Made by a program: the position numbers and the translations under genes. From positions 1 to 32,227 of IMG/VR virus record IMGVR_UViG_3300031963_000594: a stretch of DNA of 32,227 nt, one strand, 5' to 3'. Below are positions 6,336 to 32,104 of the stretch, piece after piece (within the stretch, counting starts at the first letter, position 1; every line of letters begins with the position of its first letter). The notes under the pieces are model-generated. The model saw only the letters and a list, made by a program, of their open reading frames with translations, did not search any database and was not told where the DNA came from. The stretch comes from a virus.

Positions 6336-6601
6336 TATTTCACCAGCCCTTGCGAGTAGAGTTGCTTGGCCGTCTCGACCGAGCACTTCAGTTCAAATGC
6401 CAGTTGCTCGAAGAACGTAATCGTCGGCCTCGGTCGCGACGTGATGCAGCCGATCCCGACGCGTTCCCGGCTGGAATAGTGAACGTGCGTGCCGCCGTGA
6501 TTCGGTGGCGCGAGCTCCTCGCGGCCACCACCGGAGCGACGGAACTGACATTCGCTTGTCCGCGCCCGGTCGATCACGTCCCACGTCCTCCTATTCCCCA
6601 T
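6335..6601 (-). CDS. Small hypothetical protein
   Basis: This encodes 88 residues from ATG 6601, which overlaps the end of the dNMP kinase gene by 11 bp; a more upstream ATG at 6637 would lie deeper in the kinase. The middle contains several His, Arg and Cys residues (ECQFRR, NHGGTHVHY, GIGCITSRPRP), and the C-terminus is a helix with FFEQLAFELKCSVETAKQLYSQG, a pattern loosely like a small helix-turn-helix or winged DNA-binding unit. I do not recognise the family and the assignment as coding rests on context and length. Confidence 0.5.
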   Translation of the reverse strand: MGNRRTWDVIDRARTSECQFRRSGGGREELAPPNHGGTHVHYSSRERVGIGCITSRPRPTITFFEQLAFELKCSVETAKQLYSQGLVK

Positions 6602-7469
6602 TGTACGCCTGTTCACCGGGCTCCCATAGCCGCTCAACCAGCTTCCGGAGGGCGGCCGGCGTGCTGCTGTTCTCGATCACCGAGTCGCCCGGAGCGATCT
6701 CAATGCCGGCCTCTGACAAATGGCCGTCCCGGCCCACGCCCGGGCGGGCGACGTGCCAGATGGCCCCGCCGCGACGGCGGATTTCCTGCGCCTCGTTCTC
6801 GAACCGCACGTCCGCGAAGACGATGGTCTGAATGCCGGCATCAAACGCGGCTTGGGCACGGTCCATGCCAATATGGACCCAAATGTCCCTTGCCACGGTT
6901 TCCCGGCCCCATTCGGTCCCGAGGGTCTGGAGCAGTTCCCGCGACGTTTTCCCCAGCCACTCGATCGGCCGGGACTTGACCGCCGGATGCCGCAAGACGT
7001 TTTCCGGCAGGCCGGTAATGACTGCCAGCATCGCGTAGAGCGGGTCCGCGAACTGCATGACGAGCGCCCCGGGGACCATTGACGCCACGAGCGTCTTTCC
7101 GGCCCCGGCCGGGCCGGTGATGCCAACGAGACGGGAAACGCTGCCGCCGTAGGACTGCCTGGCGATCACCGCCGGGCTCGTCCTCCGTTTGACGGCCTCC
7201 CACGCGGCGAGCAGCATGTCGGGGTCCGGGCCACTGACCGGGACCGGCCCTTCCTGCACTGCCGCAGGCCGCGGTGCCTGGCGGGATTCGACCGCCCGCC
7301 GCAGGGCCGCGTTTTCGTCGTTCAGCTTGTCGATCGTCTCCAACAGTTCCCTCCGTTCCATCACTAGCCGCATGGAATCTGCAGCCACCGACCCGGCCGA
7401 CCCGGTCCACGCACCCTGATAGCATCGCGCCCGCCGGACGCAGTCCTCGACGTATGACTCGTCAAGCAT
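6591..7469 (-). CDS. Deoxynucleoside monophosphate kinase with N-terminal coiled-coil extension
   Basis: This encodes 292 residues. From about residue 115 it has the P-loop GITGPAGAGKT, then the substrate-binding segment around FADPLYAMLAVITGL, a RELLQTLGTEWGR segment, IWVHIG, and the IVFADVRFENEAQEIRRRGG region that follows the acidic Walker B strand. This order matches phage dNMP kinases of the T4 gp1 type, which phosphorylate dNMPs, including modified ones, to dNDPs. Residues 35-65 (RRELLETIDKLNDENAALRR) form a short coiled coil that the family usually lacks. The start overlaps the phosphoesterase gene by 8 bp. A role in nucleotide supply for replication is likely. Confidence 0.8.
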   Translation of the reverse strand: MLDESYVEDCVRRARCYQGAWTGSAGSVAADSMRLVMERRELLETIDKLNDENAALRRAVESRQAPRPAAVQEGPVPVSGPDPDMLLAAWEAVKRRTSPAVIARQSYGGSVSRLVGITGPAGAGKTLVASMVPGALVMQFADPLYAMLAVITGLPENVLRHPAVKSRPIEWLGKTSRELLQTLGTEWGRETVARDIWVHIGMDRAQAAFDAGIQTIVFADVRFENEAQEIRRRGGAIWHVARPGVGRDGHLSEAGIEIAPGDSVIENSSTPAALRKLVERLWEPGEQAYNGE

Positions 7470-8550
7470 CGGGCCGCTTCCTCAGATCGCGGTCGCACCA
7501 CACCGGCATGGCACGGGTGCATTCACGCCGCTCGCCGTCCACGATGACGAGCGATTGGCACGGGGCTTCGGCTTCGGCCCGGATGCGCAGGGCGAATGCG
7601 TTCATGCCCACGAGGCTGCCGTTTGAAACGTACCGGCCGCGGAGCCATCCCCATTGGTGCCAGTGCCCAAACAGGTCGAGGTCCGCGCGCCGCGAGCGGT
7701 TCCAGGCGGCGATCGCCTTGTTGGCCGGGATGGTGATCCCGCCGATGCCGCCCTGATACCGGCCGATCGAATGCCCGTGGTGGTAGCGGACAGTGAACCC
7801 GTCGAGGTCGAGGTAGCCTAGGTATCCCTCGGCGATGTCCCAGCGGACGTTTCGCCGGCCCTCGGCCTCCCGCATCATCAGATATGCGTTTTGCTCGAAG
7901 GAATGCTGGTGCTCGGTCGCCATCCGCGGCTTGCCGTGATTCGACCGGCCGTGATTGCCCGGCTGGGTGACGACAATCACTTCCCGGGCCATGTCGGCCG
8001 CCATGTCGATGAGCCCGCGGAGCCGGGCGGCCGCCCACCGCATCGCCTCCATCGGGGCAAGGCTCGTGGTTTCGGCCAGTTCCTCGTGGATATGGCCGGA
8101 AATAAAGTCTCCAAGACAGGCCAGCACGATCCGGTCGATTTTGACCAGCCGGCGCTCGTGCTCGATCAGAATTGCGAGCCGCTCGGCCAGTTCCGCAATT
8201 CGCACGTCGGCCGTGGCGAGGTCGAACCGATTGGCGCCGCTGGTTTGCTCGCGCGTGACCGTCTCCTCGACATGCCAATCCGACAGCACGGCGATCGCCG
8301 TGGCCGTCGTCCGCGACTTGCCGGCCGGCTTGTTGCGAAATACCTTCCCTTCGATCCGACCCAGCCCGGCCAGAGTCGCCGCCCTCGCCTTTTCTGCATC
8401 CAGCGCCGCGAGGGACGCCTTGTAACGCCCGCGCAGGCTCGCGTTCTCAGCCCGCAGGCGGGCGAGCTCGGCGTCGGATTGGAGCCGGTCGTCCGTCGCG
8501 AGGTCCGCAACGGACGCGGCTACGCTTTGTTGTTTCGCTGCCTTAGCCAT
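7462..8550 (-). CDS. Calcineurin-like metallophosphoesterase with N-terminal coiled coil
   Basis: This encodes 362 residues from ATG 8550 (a GTG two codons earlier is possible). Residues 25-60 look like a coiled coil (DAELARLRAENASLRGRYK). The catalytic domain shows all the two-metal motifs in order: SDWHVE, CLGDFISG, QPGNHGR, HHGHS and LFGHWHQWG. Related phage enzymes act as DNA exonucleases, phosphatases or nucleotide phosphodiesterases; the substrate here cannot be read from sequence. Its 3' end overlaps the dNMP kinase gene and its 5' end overlaps the small gene before it by 31 bp, so the three are likely cotranslated. Confidence 0.8.
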   Translation of the reverse strand: MAKAAKQQSVAASVADLATDDRLQSDAELARLRAENASLRGRYKASLAALDAEKARAATLAGLGRIEGKVFRNKPAGKSRTTATAIAVLSDWHVEETVTREQTSGANRFDLATADVRIAELAERLAILIEHERRLVKIDRIVLACLGDFISGHIHEELAETTSLAPMEAMRWAAARLRGLIDMAADMAREVIVVTQPGNHGRSNHGKPRMATEHQHSFEQNAYLMMREAEGRRNVRWDIAEGYLGYLDLDGFTVRYHHGHSIGRYQGGIGGITIPANKAIAAWNRSRRADLDLFGHWHQWGWLRGRYVSNGSLVGMNAFALRIRAEAEAPCQSLVIVDGERRECTRAMPVWCDRDLRKRPDA

Positions 8551-8783
8551 CGGCACACCGCGTCGAATGAAGGAAGTGGATCAACGCCCAGCAGCCTGGC
8601 GACTTCGATTACTGCCCGAGCGTAAGACGCCTGCGAATGCTTGCTGGAATCCCACTGCTGCCGTGCTTGCTCAAATTCGGCGCGCAGGTCTGCGGGCATC
8701 TTGGTGATCCACGACGCGTAGCCGAATCGCGAGGCATGGATGCGAGCCACGACCATTTCCTCGACAGTCTCTTTGCGGGCCAT
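8520..8783 (-). CDS. Small hypothetical protein, putative terminase- or Nu1-like fold uncertain
   Basis: This encodes 87 residues from ATG 8783, preceded by GGAGGG with 6 bases of spacing; the frame is open further upstream but without a ribosome site. It is helical and mixed in charge: KETVEEMVVARIHASRFGY, a LRAEFEQARQQWDSSKHSQ helix and AVIEVARLLGVDPLPSFDAV, ending in WLRQRNNKA. The last part resembles small helical DNA-interacting proteins, but no motif is diagnostic. Coupling to the phosphoesterase suggests a related role. The terminase hint is only a thought from size and helical content. Confidence 0.55.
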   Translation of the reverse strand: MARKETVEEMVVARIHASRFGYASWITKMPADLRAEFEQARQQWDSSKHSQASYARAVIEVARLLGVDPLPSFDAVCRWLRQRNNKA

Positions 8784-14898: not shown

Positions 14899-15657
14899 CT
14901 ACGCCCTTTTGACGGAAAACCCACGGCCGCCGTAGGAGACGCGGAACGCGCCTTGGAACGCTCTGGCGATGTCGCCGCGGGCGATGGCGACGCGCATCGC
15001 CGGCCCCATGAATGGCCGGGCCGGATAACGCACCACCTGGCGACCGCCGGACAGCGGAGCCCACTTGCTCATGTCGCTAGGCCGCGTCCCTTCGCCCAGC
15101 TTCCAGATGATCGGGCTCCGCATCTGCCCGCTCTTGGTGGGAATCTGAGGCTTGAAAACCCAGGTGTTGAGCGCGACGGTGCCGCCGAACTCGTGCAGAT
15201 ACGGGAGCTGCCGCCCCTTCCGCGACGGGCCGACGACGGCCGAGGCGGTCATGCTGTCGTAGAAGTTCCACAGGTTGCGGCGGAAGCCAAGAAACGACTG
15301 CGGGCTTCCGGCATACGGGGTGTGGGTATAGACGGGCGATCCAGGAGGAGAGGACGGTGGATTGCGGACCTCGCGCACGATCCTGTCCGCGGTCCGCTGC
15401 GAAATAGCCCCTCCGGACACCATCCGCGAAAGCGGCAGGCCGGCGTATTGCTTGGCGACCTTAGTCGGGAGCCTCGCCATGCCTCGCTTCTTGATGAGCC
15501 GGCGAGCGTGATCCTTGACCCGCAGCGACGCCTTGGTCAAGGCACGGTAGTCCATTTCGGACAGGGCATCCTTGATTGCCTGCCGGTCAAAAAAGTTGTT
15601 GACGCTCACCCGCAGGCCGACGCCGGGGACCGTGATCCCCATGGAAAACGGGTTCAT
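14899..15657 (-). CDS. Tail completion or head-tail connector protein (HK97 gp10-like)
   Basis: This encodes 252 residues from ATG 15657, overlapping the previous stop (ATGA). Early residues (FFDRQAIKDALSEMDYRALT, then KASLRVKDHARRLIKK) form the helical start typical of HK97 gp10-type tail-completion proteins. The C-terminal part contains YLHEFGGTVALNTWVFKPQI and PARPFMGPAMRVAIARGD, matching the family pattern of HEFGG and RPFMxPAxxxA. The middle segment with VYTHTPYAGSPQSFLG is an insertion relative to short members. It should act at the head-tail interface during tail joining. Confidence 0.75.
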   Translation of the reverse strand: MNPFSMGITVPGVGLRVSVNNFFDRQAIKDALSEMDYRALTKASLRVKDHARRLIKKRGMARLPTKVAKQYAGLPLSRMVSGGAISQRTADRIVREVRNPPSSPPGSPVYTHTPYAGSPQSFLGFRRNLWNFYDSMTASAVVGPSRKGRQLPYLHEFGGTVALNTWVFKPQIPTKSGQMRSPIIWKLGEGTRPSDMSKWAPLSGGRQVVRYPARPFMGPAMRVAIARGDIARAFQGAFRVSYGGRGFSVKRA

Positions 15658-16121
15658 GGGAGTTTCCCTTGGCTGATTCGGTACTGCACGGCCACGTCTG
15701 CCAGAAACACGCGGCCGCCGGCCATCGCGTCGCGGTCGAACGTCGTGATGTTGGATATTGCCAACCACTGCACGCCGTCCGGCATGGCTGGCGTTGCCGC
15801 GGGCAGCTTGGCCGACCGGATCGCGTCCACGATCTCGGTCCGCAGCTCGATCAGGTCGTCAATCTCGGCGTCGTCGTTGAATCGCTTTGACATGACGACG
15901 TGAATCTCCACGTCGAACAGGTCCGCGCCTCGCGAGACGTTCGTCACCTCGACCTGGCCGGGGACGACGGATACCTGGAGCACGCCGGCCGTGATTGGCT
16001 CGGTTTCGGGGACGAATCGCCTGGCCGCGCTCCGGCACGTCAGCGGCCCGGAGAACGTCGCCGCCCGCATGGACGACGCCAGTGCGTCCGCGATCCGTAT
16101 TTCGATTGCCGAACTGGGCAT
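15654..16121 (-). CDS. Tail terminator-like protein
   Basis: This encodes 155 residues from ATG 16121, chosen over GTG 16127 because GAGG lies 5 bases upstream of the ATG. Features are an N-terminal helix (SAIEIRIADALASSMRA), a central RGADLFDVEIHVVMSKRF strand pair, the helix DDLIELRTEIVDAIRS and a last strand FLADVAVQYRISQGK. This alpha-beta order, plus a position just upstream of the HK97 gp10-like gene, fits phage tail terminator or minor capsid proteins (gpU-like). Assignment is by synteny and fold pattern, not a unique motif. Confidence 0.6.
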   Translation of the reverse strand: MPSSAIEIRIADALASSMRAATFSGPLTCRSAARRFVPETEPITAGVLQVSVVPGQVEVTNVSRGADLFDVEIHVVMSKRFNDDAEIDDLIELRTEIVDAIRSAKLPAATPAMPDGVQWLAISNITTFDRDAMAGGRVFLADVAVQYRISQGKLP

Positions 16122-16128
16122 GGGCACC

Positions 16129-17184
16129 TCACCATGGTTTCGGGCCGGGCTCTGCTACCATTCTCGCCAATCGCGCGGCGTTCTTCGTCAGACGATCGTC
16201 GTCCGGGCTGCGCTTGGCCGCCTCGGCGGCATGCCTCGCGGCTTCCTCAAACCTCCCCAACTTCCAAGCCGCGGACGCGGCCAGATCGGCCGCGGCGGAA
16301 CCGTAGGCCCGCGGGTCGCTGGTGTGGGTCTGGTTGTTCTGGTGGCAAGCCATCGCCTGCCGGGCGTAGTAGAGGGCCGCCACGGCGTCCTCCATGCCCC
16401 AGGCCCGCTCCGCGATCGTCAGGTACGCCTCCGGCTCGCAAGGGCTCTGGATGATCGCCTCCAGGAGCCGCCGGGTGCCCTTGTCCGCCTGCCGGCGTGC
16501 CAGCACGCGGTAGGCATAGGCTCGCTCGTGCGGCGTCCCTCCTGCCAGCGTCAGGTATCGCTCGAATGCCGGCACGGCCTCGTCGGAATTGCCGTAGTCG
16601 AGCTCCCGGGCCAGATACCACTGCATGCGGGCGTCCAACGGGTTTTCGCGGACCGCTTGGCGGAGCAGCGTCAGGTCGGTGCCGTGGGATTTTCCAGGCT
16701 GCCGGTGATGGCGAATTACCAGCCGTTCCGAGTACGCCTCAACGTCGTCCCCACTCCAGCGGACCAGCCCCTCGTGGGTCGCCCCGGTCCAGCGGTAGCC
16801 GCCCCGGGAGTGAATCCGGTCGCAGAGAAACCGGACCGACTCCGACCAGTGATACCAGTAGCGGAGCTTGGTCGTGTACGGCTTCCAATCGGCCTCTAGG
16901 GCTTCCCGCCACCCCGGGTCGAGCTGTTCATCCAGGTCGAGGCGGATGCACACGTCCACGTCGGCCGGAACGTGCATCAGCGACAGGTTGTGGGCGTCGT
17001 CCCATCGCCACGGCTGCGGGGAGCCGCTCACAACGGTCACGCCAGCCGCCGCGAGCATTTCCTGCGTGCCGTCGGTCGATCCTGTGTCTGTCACGACCCG
17101 CGCGTCGGCGTCGCGGCACGACGCCTCCCAGGCGGCCACGTTGGCGGCCTCGTTCCGGGCCAGAGCGTAGACAGCCACCCTCAT
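16129..17184 (-). CDS. Family 2 glycosyltransferase with TPR-like C-terminal region
   Basis: This encodes 351 residues. Residues 1-90 show the GT-A fold markers: VYALARNEAANV, DTGSTDGTQEML (nucleotide binding), and LDLDEQLDPGW, where the Asp-x-Asp/Glu group binds the metal and sugar nucleotide. The His-rich RWTGATHEGLV follows. From about residue 190 the sequence becomes helical repeats (DARMQWYLARELDYGNSDEA, VPAFERYLTLAGG, SAAADLAASAAWKLGRFEEA) resembling TPRs, a common partner-binding add-on in this glycosyltransferase group. It overlaps the methyltransferase gene by ATGA. The acceptor may be a phage virion protein or a host glycan; sequence alone does not say. Confidence 0.8.
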   Translation of the reverse strand: MRVAVYALARNEAANVAAWEASCRDADARVVTDTGSTDGTQEMLAAAGVTVVSGSPQPWRWDDAHNLSLMHVPADVDVCIRLDLDEQLDPGWREALEADWKPYTTKLRYWYHWSESVRFLCDRIHSRGGYRWTGATHEGLVRWSGDDVEAYSERLVIRHHRQPGKSHGTDLTLLRQAVRENPLDARMQWYLARELDYGNSDEAVPAFERYLTLAGGTPHERAYAYRVLARRQADKGTRRLLEAIIQSPCEPEAYLTIAERAWGMEDAVAALYYARQAMACHQNNQTHTSDPRAYGSAAADLAASAAWKLGRFEEAARHAAEAAKRSPDDDRLTKNAARLARMVAEPGPKPW

Positions 17185-17741
17185 GTCAGGACCGCCGCCT
17201 TCCTGAGCCCGTCGTCATAGAACTCGACGGCACGGCCGGACTCCCGCACAAACTCGTCCACCGCCCGCCGCACGTCACGGTTGTCGCAGTCGTCGGCGAG
17301 GATCACCTTGCAGCCGGACACGAGCCGAAGGTCCGCCAACGCACCGTCGAACGAGTGGTCGCCGTCAACGTGGGCGAAGTCGGCGGGCGGCAGCGATCGG
17401 ATGGCATGGGAGTCCACGACGATGAGGCGGGCGAATATCGTGTGCCGCTCGATCAGCCGTTTCGAATGAGCGAGGCAATCGTAGGAGTCGTCGTCCATCG
17501 CCCCGTCGATGCACAGCCAGCTCGTCGTGGGCATGGCTTCGTTGAACGAGAGCAGGGAGTACCCGCAGCGGGTGCCGATCTCGATGCCAGTCCGCGGGGC
17601 GGCCGCCGCCACCACGGCCGCTTTAAACGCGTAGTGCCGGATGACCGCTGAGTCGCAGTAGAACCAGTCGTTCTCTCGCCAGTTGGTTTGCAGCTTGCCG
17701 GCCACCCGGTCGTGCAGCTCCAGCGGCAGCGTCATGCCCAT
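17181..17741 (-). CDS. Class I SAM-dependent methyltransferase (Methyltransf_24-like)
   Basis: This encodes 186 residues from ATG 17741, which has GAGGG 4 bases upstream; ATG 17735, forming ATGA with the upstream stop, is the alternative. The SAM-binding loop is GIEIGTRCGYSLLSFNEA, followed by the acidic residue in WLCIDGAMDD, and the later FAHVDGDHSFDGALADL motif and VILADDCD, both characteristic of Methyltransf_24-type O-methyltransferases. Such enzymes often modify sugars or small hydroxyl groups. Lying between a glycosyltransferase and a propeller of glycoside-enzyme type, it probably methylates the transferred sugar. This substrate assignment is inference. Confidence 0.75.
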   Translation of the reverse strand: MGMTLPLELHDRVAGKLQTNWRENDWFYCDSAVIRHYAFKAAVVAAAAPRTGIEIGTRCGYSLLSFNEAMPTTSWLCIDGAMDDDSYDCLAHSKRLIERHTIFARLIVVDSHAIRSLPPADFAHVDGDHSFDGALADLRLVSGCKVILADDCDNRDVRRAVDEFVRESGRAVEFYDDGLRKAAVLT

Positions 17742-18784
17742 GCGTCCCTCGTCAGGTTGACCGCGTCCGTCAGGTCGAACGTGGCGATCCACGCTTCCGC
17801 GTCGCGGACGCCGAACGTGGCGGCGAGCGTCTTGCCGTTCCTTGCCAGGCCGGCACAGAACTCGATGGCCCGCTGTTCCCGAAACGCGAACGGTTGCGAA
17901 ATACTCTCCATCCGCCAGCCGTCCGCCTCGTTGAAGGTCACGAACCGATGTTCGTAGATGCGCCGGCCGGCGTCCTCGGCGACCTCATGGACGATCGCCA
18001 GCCACCGGCCGTTGTCGATCGGAACGAGCTGAGAGCCGCCGCGGAACTGGGCTGCGACATGCGGGGCTTCGGCGTGATGGGTGACGCGCCACGCCCCGTC
18101 TTCCAGCCGCACAGTGGCCGTCCGCCCGTTGACCGAGCAGGCGTAGAGCCATTCCCTGCGGCCGAGAATCGGCATCCAGTTCTTTTCGTGGTGGCCGTCG
18201 GCCGTAGCCGGGCAGGCCAGCCCAACGAGAGCCCCTCTGCGTAGCTGGGCTGTTGCAATCCGGCAAGTCCCGTCGTGTGGTGCCATGTTTCGGACGGTAG
18301 CCGAAACCACACACTCGCCATCAACGACGTTCAGCCGCACGTCCTCAAAGCCATCGACTGCGTATTCCGTTTTCTCGTAGTCGCATGCCCACGGGGCTGA
18401 ATGCTCAATGGCGAGATCGTCGTTGATCCGGCACAGGACGTTTCCGGTGCGGATAATTCCGCTGTCCTCCGGCGGCATGACGTACTGGCCGTCGATGATT
18501 CGGTAGTTTGAACTGCGGACGTTGACAGTCCAGCATCCCTTGCGAACGACCGATGGGTTGAACAGCGACCATCCGCTGCGGAACGGCTCGCACTGCACTT
18601 GCTGCATGCGCACGTCGAGCAAGTCGCCGAGCAGTTGCGTGTACCAGGTCCGGTTGCGTCGCACGATCGCTTCCATGCCGGGCTCGAGCCTCGTGCGGGC
18701 CAGCCGCTCGCACGCCCGGCGGCCGGCGTCCATTTCGCCAGCGGCGTATGCGTGGGCGGCGATGCGAAAGAGGTGCTCGGTCAT
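17732..18784 (-). CDS. Five-bladed beta-propeller protein, GH130-like carbohydrate-active enzyme
   Basis: This encodes 350 residues from ATG 18784; upstream open frame is low-complexity and overlaps the neighbour. The first 50 residues are helical. From about residue 70 the pattern FNPSVVRKGCW, GIIRTGNVLCRINDDL, DGFEDVRLNVVDGE, EKNWMPI, RGGSQLVPIDNGRWLAIVHE and RIYEHRFVTFNEADGW matches the GH130/GH43-type propeller: short strands, an EDVRL catalytic-like motif and His-rich blade ends. Family members include mannoside phosphorylases and mannosyltransferases. No Shine-Dalgarno is seen; a GTAC-containing palindrome sits right at the start. It opens a glycan cassette of three genes. Confidence 0.65.
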   Translation of the reverse strand: MTEHLFRIAAHAYAAGEMDAGRRACERLARTRLEPGMEAIVRRNRTWYTQLLGDLLDVRMQQVQCEPFRSGWSLFNPSVVRKGCWTVNVRSSNYRIIDGQYVMPPEDSGIIRTGNVLCRINDDLAIEHSAPWACDYEKTEYAVDGFEDVRLNVVDGECVVSATVRNMAPHDGTCRIATAQLRRGALVGLACPATADGHHEKNWMPILGRREWLYACSVNGRTATVRLEDGAWRVTHHAEAPHVAAQFRGGSQLVPIDNGRWLAIVHEVAEDAGRRIYEHRFVTFNEADGWRMESISQPFAFREQRAIEFCAGLARNGKTLAATFGVRDAEAWIATFDLTDAVNLTRDAWA

Positions 18785-18786
18785 GG

Positions 18787-18800
18787 GTACATTGGTACAC
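18787..18800 (-). promoter_or_regulatory. GTAC-N4-GTAC inverted repeat at the start of the glycan cassette
   Basis: The minus strand reads GTGTACCAATGTAC, an inverted repeat of GTAC around four bases, directly next to the ATG at 18784. A close relative, GTGTACCAACGTACAC, lies at 26614-26629 before another gene. The sites may bind a regulator; the one here would also overlap the translation start. Confidence 0.4.
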
Positions 18801-18827
18801 CACGCCGGCAATCCGGGAAACCGCCCC

Positions 18828-19223
18828 CTAGAGCCCCGCGGCCTCCCGAAACGCGGTGTCGAGGGTCGAGGCGTCGAGGCCGAGGGACGGCCCGAGGGCC
18901 GCCAGCCACGGGCTTCCCCGATAGACTTCGGTCCCATACTCCCACTCGACGCGGACGCTCTCGCGGGTGATCGCGTCGGGGATTGAGTTGACCGCCGCGT
19001 CGACGCTTGTCAGGCTGACGCCGTGCCGGACCAGCCAGAGGCGGGCTTGCCGGGCGGAGATCGTCGGCGGGACAGGGTCGGCATCCTCGGCGAGCTGCCA
19101 GCCGGGCGGCAGTTCGTCGGCCGGAACGGCCGTGCATCCGTCGGGCGGCGCCCAGCCGTCGGGTAAATCCGCCCGGACGAACGTCTGGACGAAGCCGCGC
19201 GTGTCTACGATTGCGATGTCCAT
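18828..19223 (-). CDS. Tail fibre assembly chaperone-like protein
   Basis: This encodes 131 residues from ATG 19223, sharing bases with the stop of the fibre gene. It starts with DIAIVDTRGFVQTFVRADLP, carries a short WAPPDGCTAVPADELPPGW region, then a helical C-terminal domain: ISARQARLWLVRHGVSLTSV, VNSIPDAITRESVRVEWEYG, and SPWLAALGPSLGLDASTLDT. The C-terminal pattern (ISxRQxRLxL, IPDxxxRExxxxExE, ALGxxLGL) is common in proteins encoded next to tail fibres that help them fold or attach. Its place immediately after the collagen-like fibre gene fits this role. Confidence 0.65.
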   Translation of the reverse strand: MDIAIVDTRGFVQTFVRADLPDGWAPPDGCTAVPADELPPGWQLAEDADPVPPTISARQARLWLVRHGVSLTSVDAAVNSIPDAITRESVRVEWEYGTEVYRGSPWLAALGPSLGLDASTLDTAFREAAGL

Positions 19224-20875
19224 CAGAAATACACCACGATTCGGACCATTCCGTTCGCTCCGTTGCCGCCGGCGCCGCTGGCGTAGCCGTTGAACGCGGC
19301 CCCGCCGCCTCCACCACCGCCGCCTGGGAATCCGCCGTTGCCGCCGTTGCCGCCGGCCGTCGTGGCGTTTCCGGCTCCACCGCCACCGCCACCGCTGCCG
19401 CCCGCGGAAAATACGTTGTTCGCGGTTGCGCTGGTTGCGTTTCCGCCCGGCGCCGTGCCGCCCTGCCCCCAGCCGATCCCGCCGCCCGACCCGGCAGCGG
19501 CCCATTGTTGCGAAGTCCCAGGCGCGCCGTTCCGACTGTTGTTGCTGGAGTCGATGCCGCCACCGGGACCGCCTGGACCGCCGCCGCGGAGATACATCCC
19601 CTGCCCGGAGCCGTTAGCCGTGACGCTGCCAGCCACGGCGCCGACCGAAGCCCCTGTTCCTGCGGGCTGGTTGAATCCTCCTGCGCCAGCCGCAGCCGTC
19701 CCACCGCTGCCGCCGCCGTTGTTCACTCCAAGCACCAGCAGCGGCGCCGCGCCACTGGAGAGGGCCACAGAGGACGATCCGCCGTTTGTCCCGGCGTTGC
19801 CGTTCGTGTCGTCGGTCCCCTGCGCCGCCCCGCCTCCGCCCCCGGCGCCGACCGTGATGGTGAGCGTGGTCGAGGGCATTTCCGCGACGGCCAGCATGGC
19901 CTCGCCGAGCGCGCCGCCGACGCCAGCGCCGCCGCCGAACCGCGCGGAGGCCGCGGCCCCTCGGCGGCCCGAACCGCCGCCGGCACCGCCAGCGATGGCG
20001 ATCATGTAGACGGCCTTCGCCCCGGCCGGAATCGTCCAGGTGTACGGGCCGGGTGTTGCCCCGGTCGCGTCGGCTGGCGCCGCCGTTCGCGTGAAGTCAA
20101 AGACCGCGGAGATCGGGGCGTAGGTCTGGTCGCCGCGGAGGTACGTCGAGGCCGAAGCCGTCCCGCTCCCGAGCCGCGCCGTCGCGATCGTGCCGCTGGT
20201 CAACAGACTTGCGTCTGTGGTGGCTGGCCCGGTTGGTCCGGTCACCGTTGATGCGGCGCCCGTCGGCCCGGTCACCGTTGATGCCGCGCCGGTCGGCCCG
20301 GTGATCGCCAGCAGGTCAATGGTCGCCGCCCCCCAAGAGCCGCCGGCCTTCGGCCCATAGAAGTCAGCCCCGAGGGTGTCGATGTACCAATCGCCATCCA
20401 CGCCAGCGTTCGCCAGCGGGACGCCGGCCCCGGCGATCAACGTCGCGCCGCGAACCCCGGACGGGCCCGTGCTGCCAGTCACACCGGTCGGGCCAGTGGC
20501 CCCGTTGCTGCCGTTGCTGCCGTTGGTTCCGGCAGCCCCCGTCGGCCCCGTGGCCCCCTGCTGGCCGGCCGTGAGGAGCACACCGCCGCCCCACGCTCCG
20601 TTCGCCTTTGGCCCATAGAGCCGGCCGGCGTTTGTGTCGAGGAAGAAGTCGCCGCTGTTGCCGAAACCGGACACAGGCCCGGTCGTGCCGGACCAGAACT
20701 TTGCCCCGTCAAACCCGCGCGGCCCGGTGGCTCCGGTCTGACCCATGCCAGGAAGCCAAGCCGAGCCGTCCCACGTCAGCAGCGAGCCTGTCGCCGGCGC
20801 GGTCGCGCTGACGCCGCGGCCCTGAAGCTGGGTGGCGTTGCCGGATGTCGGGGATGAAATCAAAAAGAATGGCAT
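19223..20875 (-). CDS. Collagen-like tail fibre protein with Gly-rich C-terminal domain
   Basis: This encodes 550 residues from ATG 20875. It starts [19 protein letters not shown], as the second fibre gene does. Two collagen-like stretches of Gly-X-Y (GPT, GAT, GSN triplets; for example [20 protein letters not shown]) are separated by two GDF/GDWYIDT-YGPK-G-WG modules. Residues 250-330 look like a globular adhesin, and the last 200 residues are Gly-rich with many GGG segments and few charges, like Gly-rich C-terminal domains of phage adhesins. It probably forms a trimeric fibre or spike that contacts the host surface. The following gene may be its chaperone. Confidence 0.82.
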   Translation of the reverse strand: MPFFLISSPTSGNATQLQGRGVSATAPATGSLLTWDGSAWLPGMGQTGATGPRGFDGAKFWSGTTGPVSGFGNSGDFFLDTNAGRLYGPKANGAWGGGVLLTAGQQGATGPTGAAGTNGSNGSNGATGPTGVTGSTGPSGVRGATLIAGAGVPLANAGVDGDWYIDTLGADFYGPKAGGSWGAATIDLLAITGPTGAASTVTGPTGAASTVTGPTGPATTDASLLTSGTIATARLGSGTASASTYLRGDQTYAPISAVFDFTRTAAPADATGATPGPYTWTIPAGAKAVYMIAIAGGAGGGSGRRGAAASARFGGGAGVGGALGEAMLAVAEMPSTTLTITVGAGGGGGAAQGTDDTNGNAGTNGGSSSVALSSGAAPLLVLGVNNGGGSGGTAAAGAGGFNQPAGTGASVGAVAGSVTANGSGQGMYLRGGGPGGPGGGIDSSNNSRNGAPGTSQQWAAAGSGGGIGWGQGGTAPGGNATSATANNVFSAGGSGGGGGGAGNATTAGGNGGNGGFPGGGGGGGGAAFNGYASGAGGNGANGMVRIVVYF

Positions 20876-20876
20876 G

Positions 20877-21305
20877 TCAGGTCATCCAAAAGGTGGCTCG
20901 CACCTTGTCCAGCGTGGACGTGTCTCCTCCGGCGCGGCTGAATCGGAACTGAATGAGCTCCCCTGCATTGAACGTGCCAGCGGAGCCAGACTGCGAATCC
21001 GTTCCGCTCATGCTGGCGAACGCGCTCCACAAGGTTTCGTTCTCCAACAGCCAGTTCAGCACGCCGTAATTCCAGTATTGTCGCGACCATGTTTCGAGCG
21101 TGTAGTTGAGCGTCCCGCCAACCAATGCCCGCAAAATCACTTCCGGATATGACTGAGTGTTTTGGTTGTTTCCGTAGATCGTGATATCGAACGGCGCCGC
21201 GGCTGTGCCGTGCCCGAACCGCTCGACGGTCGCCGACTCCAAATACCTGTCTTCCCGCCAATCTATCAGCGACGCCGGCCTCACGCTGCCGCATCGACCG
21301 ATCAT
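20877..21305 (-). CDS. Hypothetical protein between two fibre genes
   Basis: This encodes 142 residues from ATG 21305, which overlaps the previous stop (ATGA). It is beta-rich: [39 protein letters not shown], then [20 protein letters not shown] and a final [20 protein letters not shown]. The aromatic content and short strands suggest a virion protein such as a fibre hinge, adaptor or receptor-binding domain. The placement between two copies of a collagen-like gene suggests it could be part of the same fibre assembly. I recognise no family. Confidence 0.6.
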
Positions 21306-22231
21306 TGCTTCAAGTCTCCCATCAGAAGCCATTCGTCTGGGCGAATGAGCACCGCCGTTGCCGTTGAGTTCACGGCCCGCAACTTCTGGCCCGGAGTTGC
21401 CAAAACCGTAACGCCGTTGGCGCCAGTAATCAGCACGTCGTTCGTTCCGATTCGTGCCACGTCGATATGCACGCCGGTCGCGTAGGCCACAGTCCCCGCA
21501 GCCGGGATCGTGGCACGGAGCGTCGAAAAACCGTTGCTAGTGAACACCACCATCTTGCCGGCGTCGCCGAGCACAAGGTTGTAGCTGCTGGATTGCAGGC
21601 TGATCCCCTGGCCGTCGCCCCACGAGCCTGCCAAGCCTGCGACGCCCGTTGGCCCCGTCGGGCCGCCGTTTGGGCCTGTTGGGCCCGTGACGGTCGAGGA
21701 TGCACCAGTCGGACCTGTGCTGCCAGTTGGACCCGTGACAGTGGATGCCGCGCCGGTACTGCCCGTTGGGCCGGTACTGCCCGTTGGCCCCGCGACGGTC
21801 GATACTGGCCCGGTGCTGCCCGTCGGGCCGGTGCTGCCCGTGACTCCGGTTGGTCCGGTGACGACCGAGGCCGATCCGGTGCTTCCGGTGGCCCCAGTGA
21901 CGCCCGTCGGCCCTGTAGGTCCGCCAGCGATTGAGGAGCCGGCCCCCCAAGAGCCGTTTGCCTTGGGCCCGTAGAGCACGCTCGACGCGGTATCGACGTA
22001 GAAGTCGCCGGACCGGCCGATGCCGTTGCTCGGCGCGCCGGAGCCTGAAAACGTCGTCGCCCCGTCCATGCCGGCCGCACCCGTTGGTCCGGTCACGCCC
22101 TGCGACGCCAGCCAGGTCGAGCCGGAGTAGGTCAGGACGGCTCCGGTCGCCGGCGCCGTGGCGCTGACCGGGCGGCCCTGCAGTTGGGTTGCGTTGCCGC
22201 TCGACGGCGATGAAATGAGGAAGAACGGCAT
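21302..22231 (-). CDS. Second collagen-like tail fibre protein
   Basis: This encodes 309 residues from ATG 22231 with GGAG 8 bases upstream. The first about 35 residues repeat those of the neighbouring fibre ([20 protein letters not shown], then VSATAPATG). One [18 protein letters not shown] module is followed by about 100 residues of Gly-X-Y repeats rich in GPT, GST and GSTGPTG. The C-terminal domain ([55 protein letters not shown]) is a beta-rich head reminiscent of phage fibre tips. It is likely the shorter of two collagen-like fibres, and possibly a receptor-binding protein. Confidence 0.82.
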
Positions 22232-22602
22232 CAGTCGCTCTCCACCAGTTGCGTGTGAATCCGCCGCGTCCGCTGCTGCCTGTCAGCCCAGCTCCACGGA
22301 TTGTTGGCAGCTCCAGGCACGAATACCTCGTACACCCGCTGCACGCCGTCGATCGTTTCGCGAATCCGGTCGCCCCGCACGGGGGCTTCCGAAATATCCG
22401 CCGCCGCCACGAAGAAGTCCCGCGTCTCGGTGCGTGCTATGGTCCCGGAGGCGTCCTGGGAGTCCCACCGCGTCGATCCGATCGTTGCTGGCACGTTCTT
22501 GTCGAACATGGTCCCCTTGCGGCGATACGCGACCATGACGGCCATATGCTGCCGCCGCTTGGCCTCGAAGTAGTCCGCGCCTTTGGCGATCAGGTCTTGC
22601 AT
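22231..22602 (-). CDS. Head-tail joining-like small protein
   Basis: This encodes 123 residues from ATG 22602 (ATG 22611 is also possible). The N-terminus is a helix ([19 protein letters not shown]), then short strands with [39 protein letters not shown], and a [20 protein letters not shown] segment. The GDxI...YEV pattern matches head-tail joining proteins of the lambda FII or HK97 gp7-like kind. Position after the decoration protein and before the fibres agrees with a head-tail connector. Confidence 0.65.
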
Positions 22603-22616
22603 TGGAGCCACCAGGG

Positions 22617-31487: not shown

Positions 31488-32063
31488 TTATGCCACTAGG
31501 TCAATGTCCGAAGAAACCTCGTTGCCCCAAACGTCCCACCCAGGCCGCTTACGCCTTGCAAACAGCTCAAGCCGCGGCCCCGGCGAGATCGCCTCGATGT
31601 ATCGGTAAGTCTCGTCCCACTTTTCGCTATGCCGTGCTGGGTTTGGAACTTCAATCACGTTTGGCTTGTATCGTTCCAGCGGAAACCGGCACTTTTCCTT
31701 GTATCCGAACAGCAGTGTCTGAGTCCGACAGATGAAGTAGTTCCCAAGCCCGCTTGGCTTGATCGCGTGGACTGCCGCCAGATACTTGAATCCCCACGCT
31801 CGCATCAGAATGAAGCCGTCCTCCAAAAACTGGTTTGTCGTCCAGAGCCAAAGGTGAGCTTCGGCCGATCCTATCGCCTTCACCGGCAGCCGCAGCATTT
31901 GCTCAAGGCTCATCGTCTGATACGGAAGCTCCGTCGCTCTTCTGCGCCGCGCCTTTTTGTATCGCCCTGTCATTTCCTGCTGCCAAGGAGGGTCAATCAA
32001 TATGCAGCGGTACTCGGCATAACCAGCCGATGGAGCGGACATCGCCGCAGCGTCTTTCGTCAT
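31488..32063 (-). CDS. MT-A70-family adenine methyltransferase
   Basis: This encodes 191 residues from ATG 32063, which has GGAGG 8 bases upstream; an ATG at 32093 lacks a ribosome site. The catalytic motif is CILIDPPWQQE (DPPW) near the N-terminus, followed by TELPYQTMSLEQMLRLPV, the SAM-binding region in AHLWLWTTNQFLEDGFILM, FKYLAAVHAIKPSGLGNYF, and the end PRLELFARRKRPGWDVWGNE. This is the MT-A70 (m6A) pattern common in phages. The target is likely DNA adenine, giving protection from restriction or a regulatory mark. No restriction enzyme is nearby. Confidence 0.82.
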   Translation of the reverse strand: MTKDAAAMSAPSAGYAEYRCILIDPPWQQEMTGRYKKARRRRATELPYQTMSLEQMLRLPVKAIGSAEAHLWLWTTNQFLEDGFILMRAWGFKYLAAVHAIKPSGLGNYFICRTQTLLFGYKEKCRFPLERYKPNVIEVPNPARHSEKWDETYRYIEAISPGPRLELFARRKRPGWDVWGNEVSSDIDLVA

Positions 32064-32104
32064 ATCATCGTCCTCCGTGGCGATGCCGCTCATCTAGCGT
32101 GTTC

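Follow-up and report, generated by a model that had tools for sequence, protein, structure and literature searches.

The window, by which we mean the whole stretch of DNA analysed, spans 32,227 bases and is a virus record of IMG/VR. Its minus strand encodes a terminase, a portal, a protease-capsid fusion, and head-tail joining and tape-measure proteins. Between 16129 and 22231 the same strand carries, from the higher coordinate downwards, a collagen-like fibre (fibre B), a 151-aa protein, a second fibre (fibre A), a 131-aa protein, a propeller protein, a methyltransferase and a GT2 glycosyltransferase; the last three are referred to below as the cassette. A first-pass annotation of this DNA had placed two fibres, a GT2 enzyme with a DxD motif and a TPR-like tail, a Methyltransf_24-type protein and a GH130-like propeller here in one orientation, and all are present on the minus strand as it described.

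The upstream border of the fibre and cassette region is a gene for a head-tail joining protein (22231-22611, minus strand; PF25138, 1.4e-28), and the downstream border is the gene for p157, a 157-aa tail-module protein (15654-16127, minus strand). In a provirus of Rhodopirellula rubra (14486-15177 of L185) the gene for p157 follows immediately on the head-tail joining gene, and the fibres and the cassette therefore together occupy one insertion point. Relatives of the capsid occur almost only in planctomycete genomes, some of them in long chromosomal contigs (e.g., Rhodopirellula rubra). Thus, judging from gene relatives, the host of the phage is very probably a planctomycete (Planctomycetota). 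Also encoded on the minus strand of the window are an MT-A70-type adenine methyltransferase (31488-32093) and, at 6591-8556, a deoxynucleoside monophosphate kinase (phrog_139) that adjoins an exonuclease (phrog_284). A 77-kb contig (IMGVR_UViG_3300042453_002958; L006 and L092) contains two structural modules, with portals 45% and 75% identical to that of the window.

Both fibres are candidate acceptors for glycosylation and share an N-terminal module. Fibre B (21302-22231, minus strand; 309 aa) matches tail fibre PHROGs and contains 12 GPT and 7 GST triplets; counting only runs of at least four, it has 32 GXY triplets. Shuffled sequences of the same composition have on average 0.67 GPT (maximum 6) and 1.4 triplets (maximum 13). 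The match of fibre B to the collagen profile PF01391 (23.1 bits) falls below the cut-off of 27.2, but its triplets are far above those of the shuffles. Fibre A (19223-20875, minus strand; 550 aa) has a single collagen stretch of 14 triplets (residues 104-145), followed by a Gly-rich C-terminal domain (PF21722). The earlier description of many GPT and GST triplets in two fibres is accurate for fibre B and overstated for fibre A, which has 5 GPT and 1 GST. The 151-aa protein encoded between the fibres (20877-21332, minus strand) is without a family match; it is 44% identical in the relative L002, compared with 74-89% for its neighbours, indicating fast change between conserved genes. The 131-aa protein (18828-19223, minus strand) is a conserved phage protein (phrog_6034).

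The GT2 glycosyltransferase (16129-17184, minus strand) has a weak Pfam GT2 match, a TPR_14 match above the cut-off and a match to phrog_13126 at 7e-72. Its DxD motif is DLD at 83-85, in which D83 and D85 are invariant in 38 sequences. The structural model (pLDDT 91) has helical pairs at 171-344 that form a C-terminal TPR domain, and its best fold matches are the peptide glycosyltransferases ThuS and SunS (2e-16, Foldseek), over the GT-A domain and a large part of the helical tail. SunS and ThuS modify chiefly Cys, ThuS also Ser, and SunS derives from the SPbeta prophage. Unlike what we propose here, their substrates are small bacteriocin precursors, and similarity in sequence is weak, with the profile of the window enzyme reaching ThuS at E 0.01. 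Actinophage homologues, which match the window enzyme at a profile E of 4e-75, find ThuS/SunS (1e-4) and GmaR (8.5e-9) by sequence. GmaR is the GlcNAc transferase that glycosylates Listeria flagellin (PMC9638930); it shares the GT-A and TPR architecture and a protein acceptor, but has an extra antirepressor domain and uses flagellin as its substrate. ThuS, SunS and GmaR all glycosylate proteins or peptides and all have a tail that is helical or made of TPRs. By fold, the window enzyme belongs with these GT2-TPR protein or peptide glycosyltransferases, and we annotate it as a putative initiating enzyme that may transfer sugar to protein Ser, Thr or Cys.

A close parallel is Clostridioides difficile SgtA (358 aa, GT-A and TPR), encoded beside bclA3, which adds O-GlcNAc in vitro to Thr, and also to Ser, of GPT collagen peptides (PMC7157674). 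From its published description, SgtA resembles the window enzyme in having a GT-A domain with C-terminal TPRs, a length of about 350 aa and a gene adjoining that of a GPT collagen-like protein. It differs in that its acceptor is a cellular spore protein and in that no propeller has been reported with it. Matches to the glycosyltransferase profile were not found in bacterial genome contigs, in a search limited to two exact motifs that is no proof of absence. Among 294 genomes of the phylum two matched, one strongly and one weakly; the strong match is an apparently orphan chromosomal gene.

The adjacent gene (17732-18784, minus strand) encodes a five-bladed propeller. A 401-aa version is too long, and the start at ATG 18784 (350 aa) agrees with relatives. 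The fold of the model (pLDDT 94) resembles those of GH130 phosphorylases and of the GT108 enzyme MPT-2 (1e-10 to 2e-7), with GH130 enzymes as the best PDB matches (1e-10). Like the GH130 mannoside phosphorylases and MPT-2, the protein retains the GxEDxR motif and the terminal Asp motif (GxxD). E147-D148-x-R150 and D328 are invariant in 33 sequences; E147-D148 and D328 align with GIEDAR and GVADT of Lin0857, in a sequence alignment that is weak (E 0.1). In this alignment D148 would be the catalytic Asp and D328 the terminal Asp that binds mannose. Mannose binding in GH130 enzymes involves Asn, Asp and Asp, with Tyr or Glu before the first Asp (PMC4264767). The window propeller has Glu at this position, as in the GH130_NC group, and an invariant N76 (in FNPS), a candidate for the mannose-binding Asn that lies towards the N-terminal end of the GH130 propeller; N76 was aligned with cyanophage propellers, not directly with solved GH130 structures. 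The Pfam GH130 profile (PF04041) has no match in the window protein, and because of this we call it GH130/GT108-like and not a GH130 member; an enzymatic role, as a mannosyl(-like) transferase or a phosphorylase, is putative. Four of 20 cyanophage homologues match PF04041 (best 1.3e-4), and one that was fully scored reached 21.4 bits, below the cut-off of 26.

A further difference from the GH130 enzymes and MPT-2 is an added N-terminal helical region. Residues 2-48 form helical hairpins that resemble TPRs and are possibly a docking part, and homology to the cyanophage propellers begins only at residue 68. Among the BFVD matches are giant-virus proteins in which a similar propeller domain is joined to a glycan-modifying enzyme; they are named as fucosyltransferase, LicD/FKTN nucleotidyltransferase or WcaK-like pyruvyl transferase. 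A search of 392 genomes of the phylum with the propeller profile found none.

Between these two genes lies that of a Methyltransf_24 protein (17181-17741, minus strand; PF13578, 33.5 bits against a cut-off of 26.3), a putative sugar O-methyltransferase. The first-pass annotation had the enzymes coupled by ATGA overlaps. This is correct for the junction of methyltransferase and glycosyltransferase (17181-17184), but propeller and methyltransferase overlap by 10 nt (17732-17741). The junctions are remarkably uniform: most related contigs have overlaps of 7, 10, 13 or 20 nt at the latter junction and of 4 nt or 1 nt at the former. Among the best 80 relatives of the glycosyltransferase, the order fibres, propeller, methyltransferase, glycosyltransferase, p157, p254 recurs with few variants wherever the contig is long enough, and the position of the cassette between fibre and tail genes is fixed in dozens of related contigs. 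In some lineages the interval from methyltransferase to glycosyltransferase also contains a second, FkbM-type methyltransferase or other glycosyltransferases, and in others the methyltransferase is absent or replaced. The glycosyltransferase and propeller co-occur in nearly all relatives, which suggests that these two are the core and that methylation or extension is the variable part. Comparison of the window with its nearest relative indicates purifying selection (dN about 0.2-0.3, dS about 0.9-1.0; dN/dS 0.2-0.3).

After removal of near-identical cassettes, 46 distinct clusters, including that of the window, could be scored for adjoining fibres (6 more could not). The window and 18 others are collagen-rich, 6 are weakly so and 21 lack a collagen-like fibre. 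In a tree of glycosyltransferase and propeller, the collagen-less cassettes fall in one clade with support of 100/100 (18 without, 2 weak); the incompletely covered L007 is collagen-less but stands apart from it, and all other lineages are collagen-bearing. Cassettes without such fibres are almost wholly those of this one clade, which exchanged its fibres yet retained the cassette. A match to the collagen family was absent from the whole record in 22 of 23 collagen-poor cassette records, most of which are incomplete, and present in all seven collagen-rich controls. The fibres of the collagen-less clade are still Ser/Thr-rich (16-28% in 13 measured), and one bears a laminin-G-like domain. The open frame of the head-tail joining gene in this clade often extends to about 200-680 aa, possibly as a C-terminal extension.

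Collagen-rich fibres accompany 19 of 46 cassettes and occur in 3 of 26 cassette-less relatives (Fisher p=0.007), and for T-rich collagen fibres, which only one of those three relatives has, the counts are 19/46 and 1/26 (p=4e-4); both tests count related phages, which are not independent. The cassette thus tends to accompany T-rich collagen fibres but can be retained where they are absent. The comparison of cassette presence with triplet content that had been suggested at the outset is therefore split, with 25 of 46 cassettes adjoining collagen-like fibres and cassette-less relatives mostly collagen-free, but 21 cassettes without. By crude counts, the pattern named as speaking against the original proposal, a cassette found mainly in the absence of Thr-rich fibres, is nearly reached; on the tree, the collagen-less records are essentially one clade.

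Actinophages and cyanophages of unrelated lineages also encode distant relatives of the two core proteins, again close to T-rich collagens. In the Actinomycetia phage DSL-LC01 a pair of GPT-rich collagen genes, a gene for a YHYH protein and a halogenase-like gene lie ahead of a glycosyltransferase homologue. An actinophage cluster at 1535-8077 of L208 comprises two GPT-rich collagens, a YHYH protein, a tryptophan-halogenase-like flavoprotein and a glycosyltransferase. The Synechococcus phage DSL-LC02 has a propeller homologue adjoining T-rich collagen fibres and an FkbM-type methyltransferase, and the window-type and cyanophage-type propeller families are related at a profile E of 2e-34. Collagen runs of eight or more triplets were identified at 56 of 80 loci of the glycosyltransferase type and 42 of 80 of the propeller type, and collagen matches in 16/16 and 13/15 long records, respectively. 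The median distance from glycosyltransferase to nearest collagen is 2.8 kb, compared with 17 kb under random placement (p 1.5e-4), in a test of 16 long records plus DSL-LC01 that represents essentially one lineage. For the cyanophage-type propeller the excess is small (0.057 versus 0.044 collagen ORFs per kb). In any case, fibre and accessory genes lie in the same late regions, which weakens proximity as evidence.

We consider it reasonably probable that the cassette encodes a phage system for protein glycosylation, directed at the phage's own tail-fibre proteins, the acceptor and the effect on the virion being presumed. The original proposal, that it glycosylates the threonines of GPT triplets in the fibres, stands as regards a protein-glycosylation cassette (by fold, synteny and the SgtA/BclA3 precedent; PMC7157674). 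Its acceptor was too narrow: 21 of the 46 cassettes have no collagen-like fibre nearby, and GPT triplets are therefore not an obligatory acceptor. The Thr of GPT is likely one acceptor, not the sole one.

Most likely, the cassette would be made together with the late structural genes. The GT2-TPR enzyme would bind a Ser/Thr-rich fibre and put the first sugar on Thr or Ser, including the Thr of GPT and GST triplets. The GH130/GT108-like propeller could then add a mannose-type sugar, and the methyltransferase could cap the glycan by O-methylation; in relatives, additional or replacing methyltransferases and glycosyltransferases would vary the glycan. Priming is proposed from fold and precedent, extension from fold and motifs, and capping only from family membership and neighbourhood; the sugars and the order of the steps are those that we infer. 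A propeller partner in such glycosylation is not described in the literature searched.

When phage glycosyltransferases lie beside tail fibres, the literature usually takes them to serve DNA protection or change of the host surface. The alternative raised by the first-pass annotation was of the latter kind, alteration of host surface glycans to exclude other phages. More broadly, the enzymes could act during infection on glycans of the host surface or on proteins of the host, and the varying extra methyltransferases and glycosyltransferases would fit this. We regard it as unlikely, and less favoured given the solubility of the proteins and the protein-glycosyltransferase fold: membrane-spanning segments were not found in propeller, methyltransferase or glycosyltransferase, no flippase or polyprenyl-linked glycosyltransferase lies beside the cassette, the glycosyltransferase groups by fold with soluble protein glycosyltransferases, and the cassette genes overlap each other inside a late structural gene run. 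Glycosyltransferases of other phages do glycosylate phage DNA, and the window encodes a deoxynucleoside monophosphate kinase (6591-7469), but this role is extremely improbable for the cassette. A PF00303 search of 12 cassette-bearing records (32-77 kb, incomplete) identified no thymidylate-synthase/hydroxymethylase relative, and the fold of the glycosyltransferase is that of a TPR protein glycosyltransferase.

That same fold, together with the fixed position, the overlaps conserved across dozens of contigs and the purifying selection, makes it very unlikely that the cassette is sugar-metabolism cargo in a variable fibre region, with only incidental proximity to GPT fibres, although one whole clade holds it without collagen fibres. 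Retention of the cassette by a clade with changed fibres would also be expected if its target is a virion protein other than the fibres (major capsid, decoration or tail-tube). The account of Freeman 2023 given in PMC12619734 provides a precedent in mycobacteriophages, where phage glycosyltransferases modify virion proteins; the acceptors in that account are capsid and tail-tube subunits, not collagen-like fibres. For the window phage we judge such an acceptor quite unlikely: cassette-less relatives retain homologous capsid (55-73%), head-tail and tail genes, for which the cassette is not required, and proximity to collagen fibres recurs in other lineages.

Glycosylation of the fibres, our preferred reading, may extend beyond this family. 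We suggest, tentatively, a fibre-glycosylation system of aquatic phages whose modules recur in several lineages: an SgtA/SunS-type enzyme that primes fibres, collagen-like or of other kinds, at Ser/Thr, a GH130-fold mannosyl-type transferase acting on the virion glycan, and exchangeable methyltransferases and glycosyltransferases that diversify it. If this is correct, a common group of unexplained phage genes would gain a function, and the propeller would represent a case of a phage applying a GH130-fold enzyme to a virion protein. The cassettes of planctomycete, actinobacterial and cyanobacterial phages would become one testable problem. Sugar coats on the phage's own fibres may occur in many aquatic phages, and the receptor-binding surface would then no longer be described by the sequence of the fibre alone.
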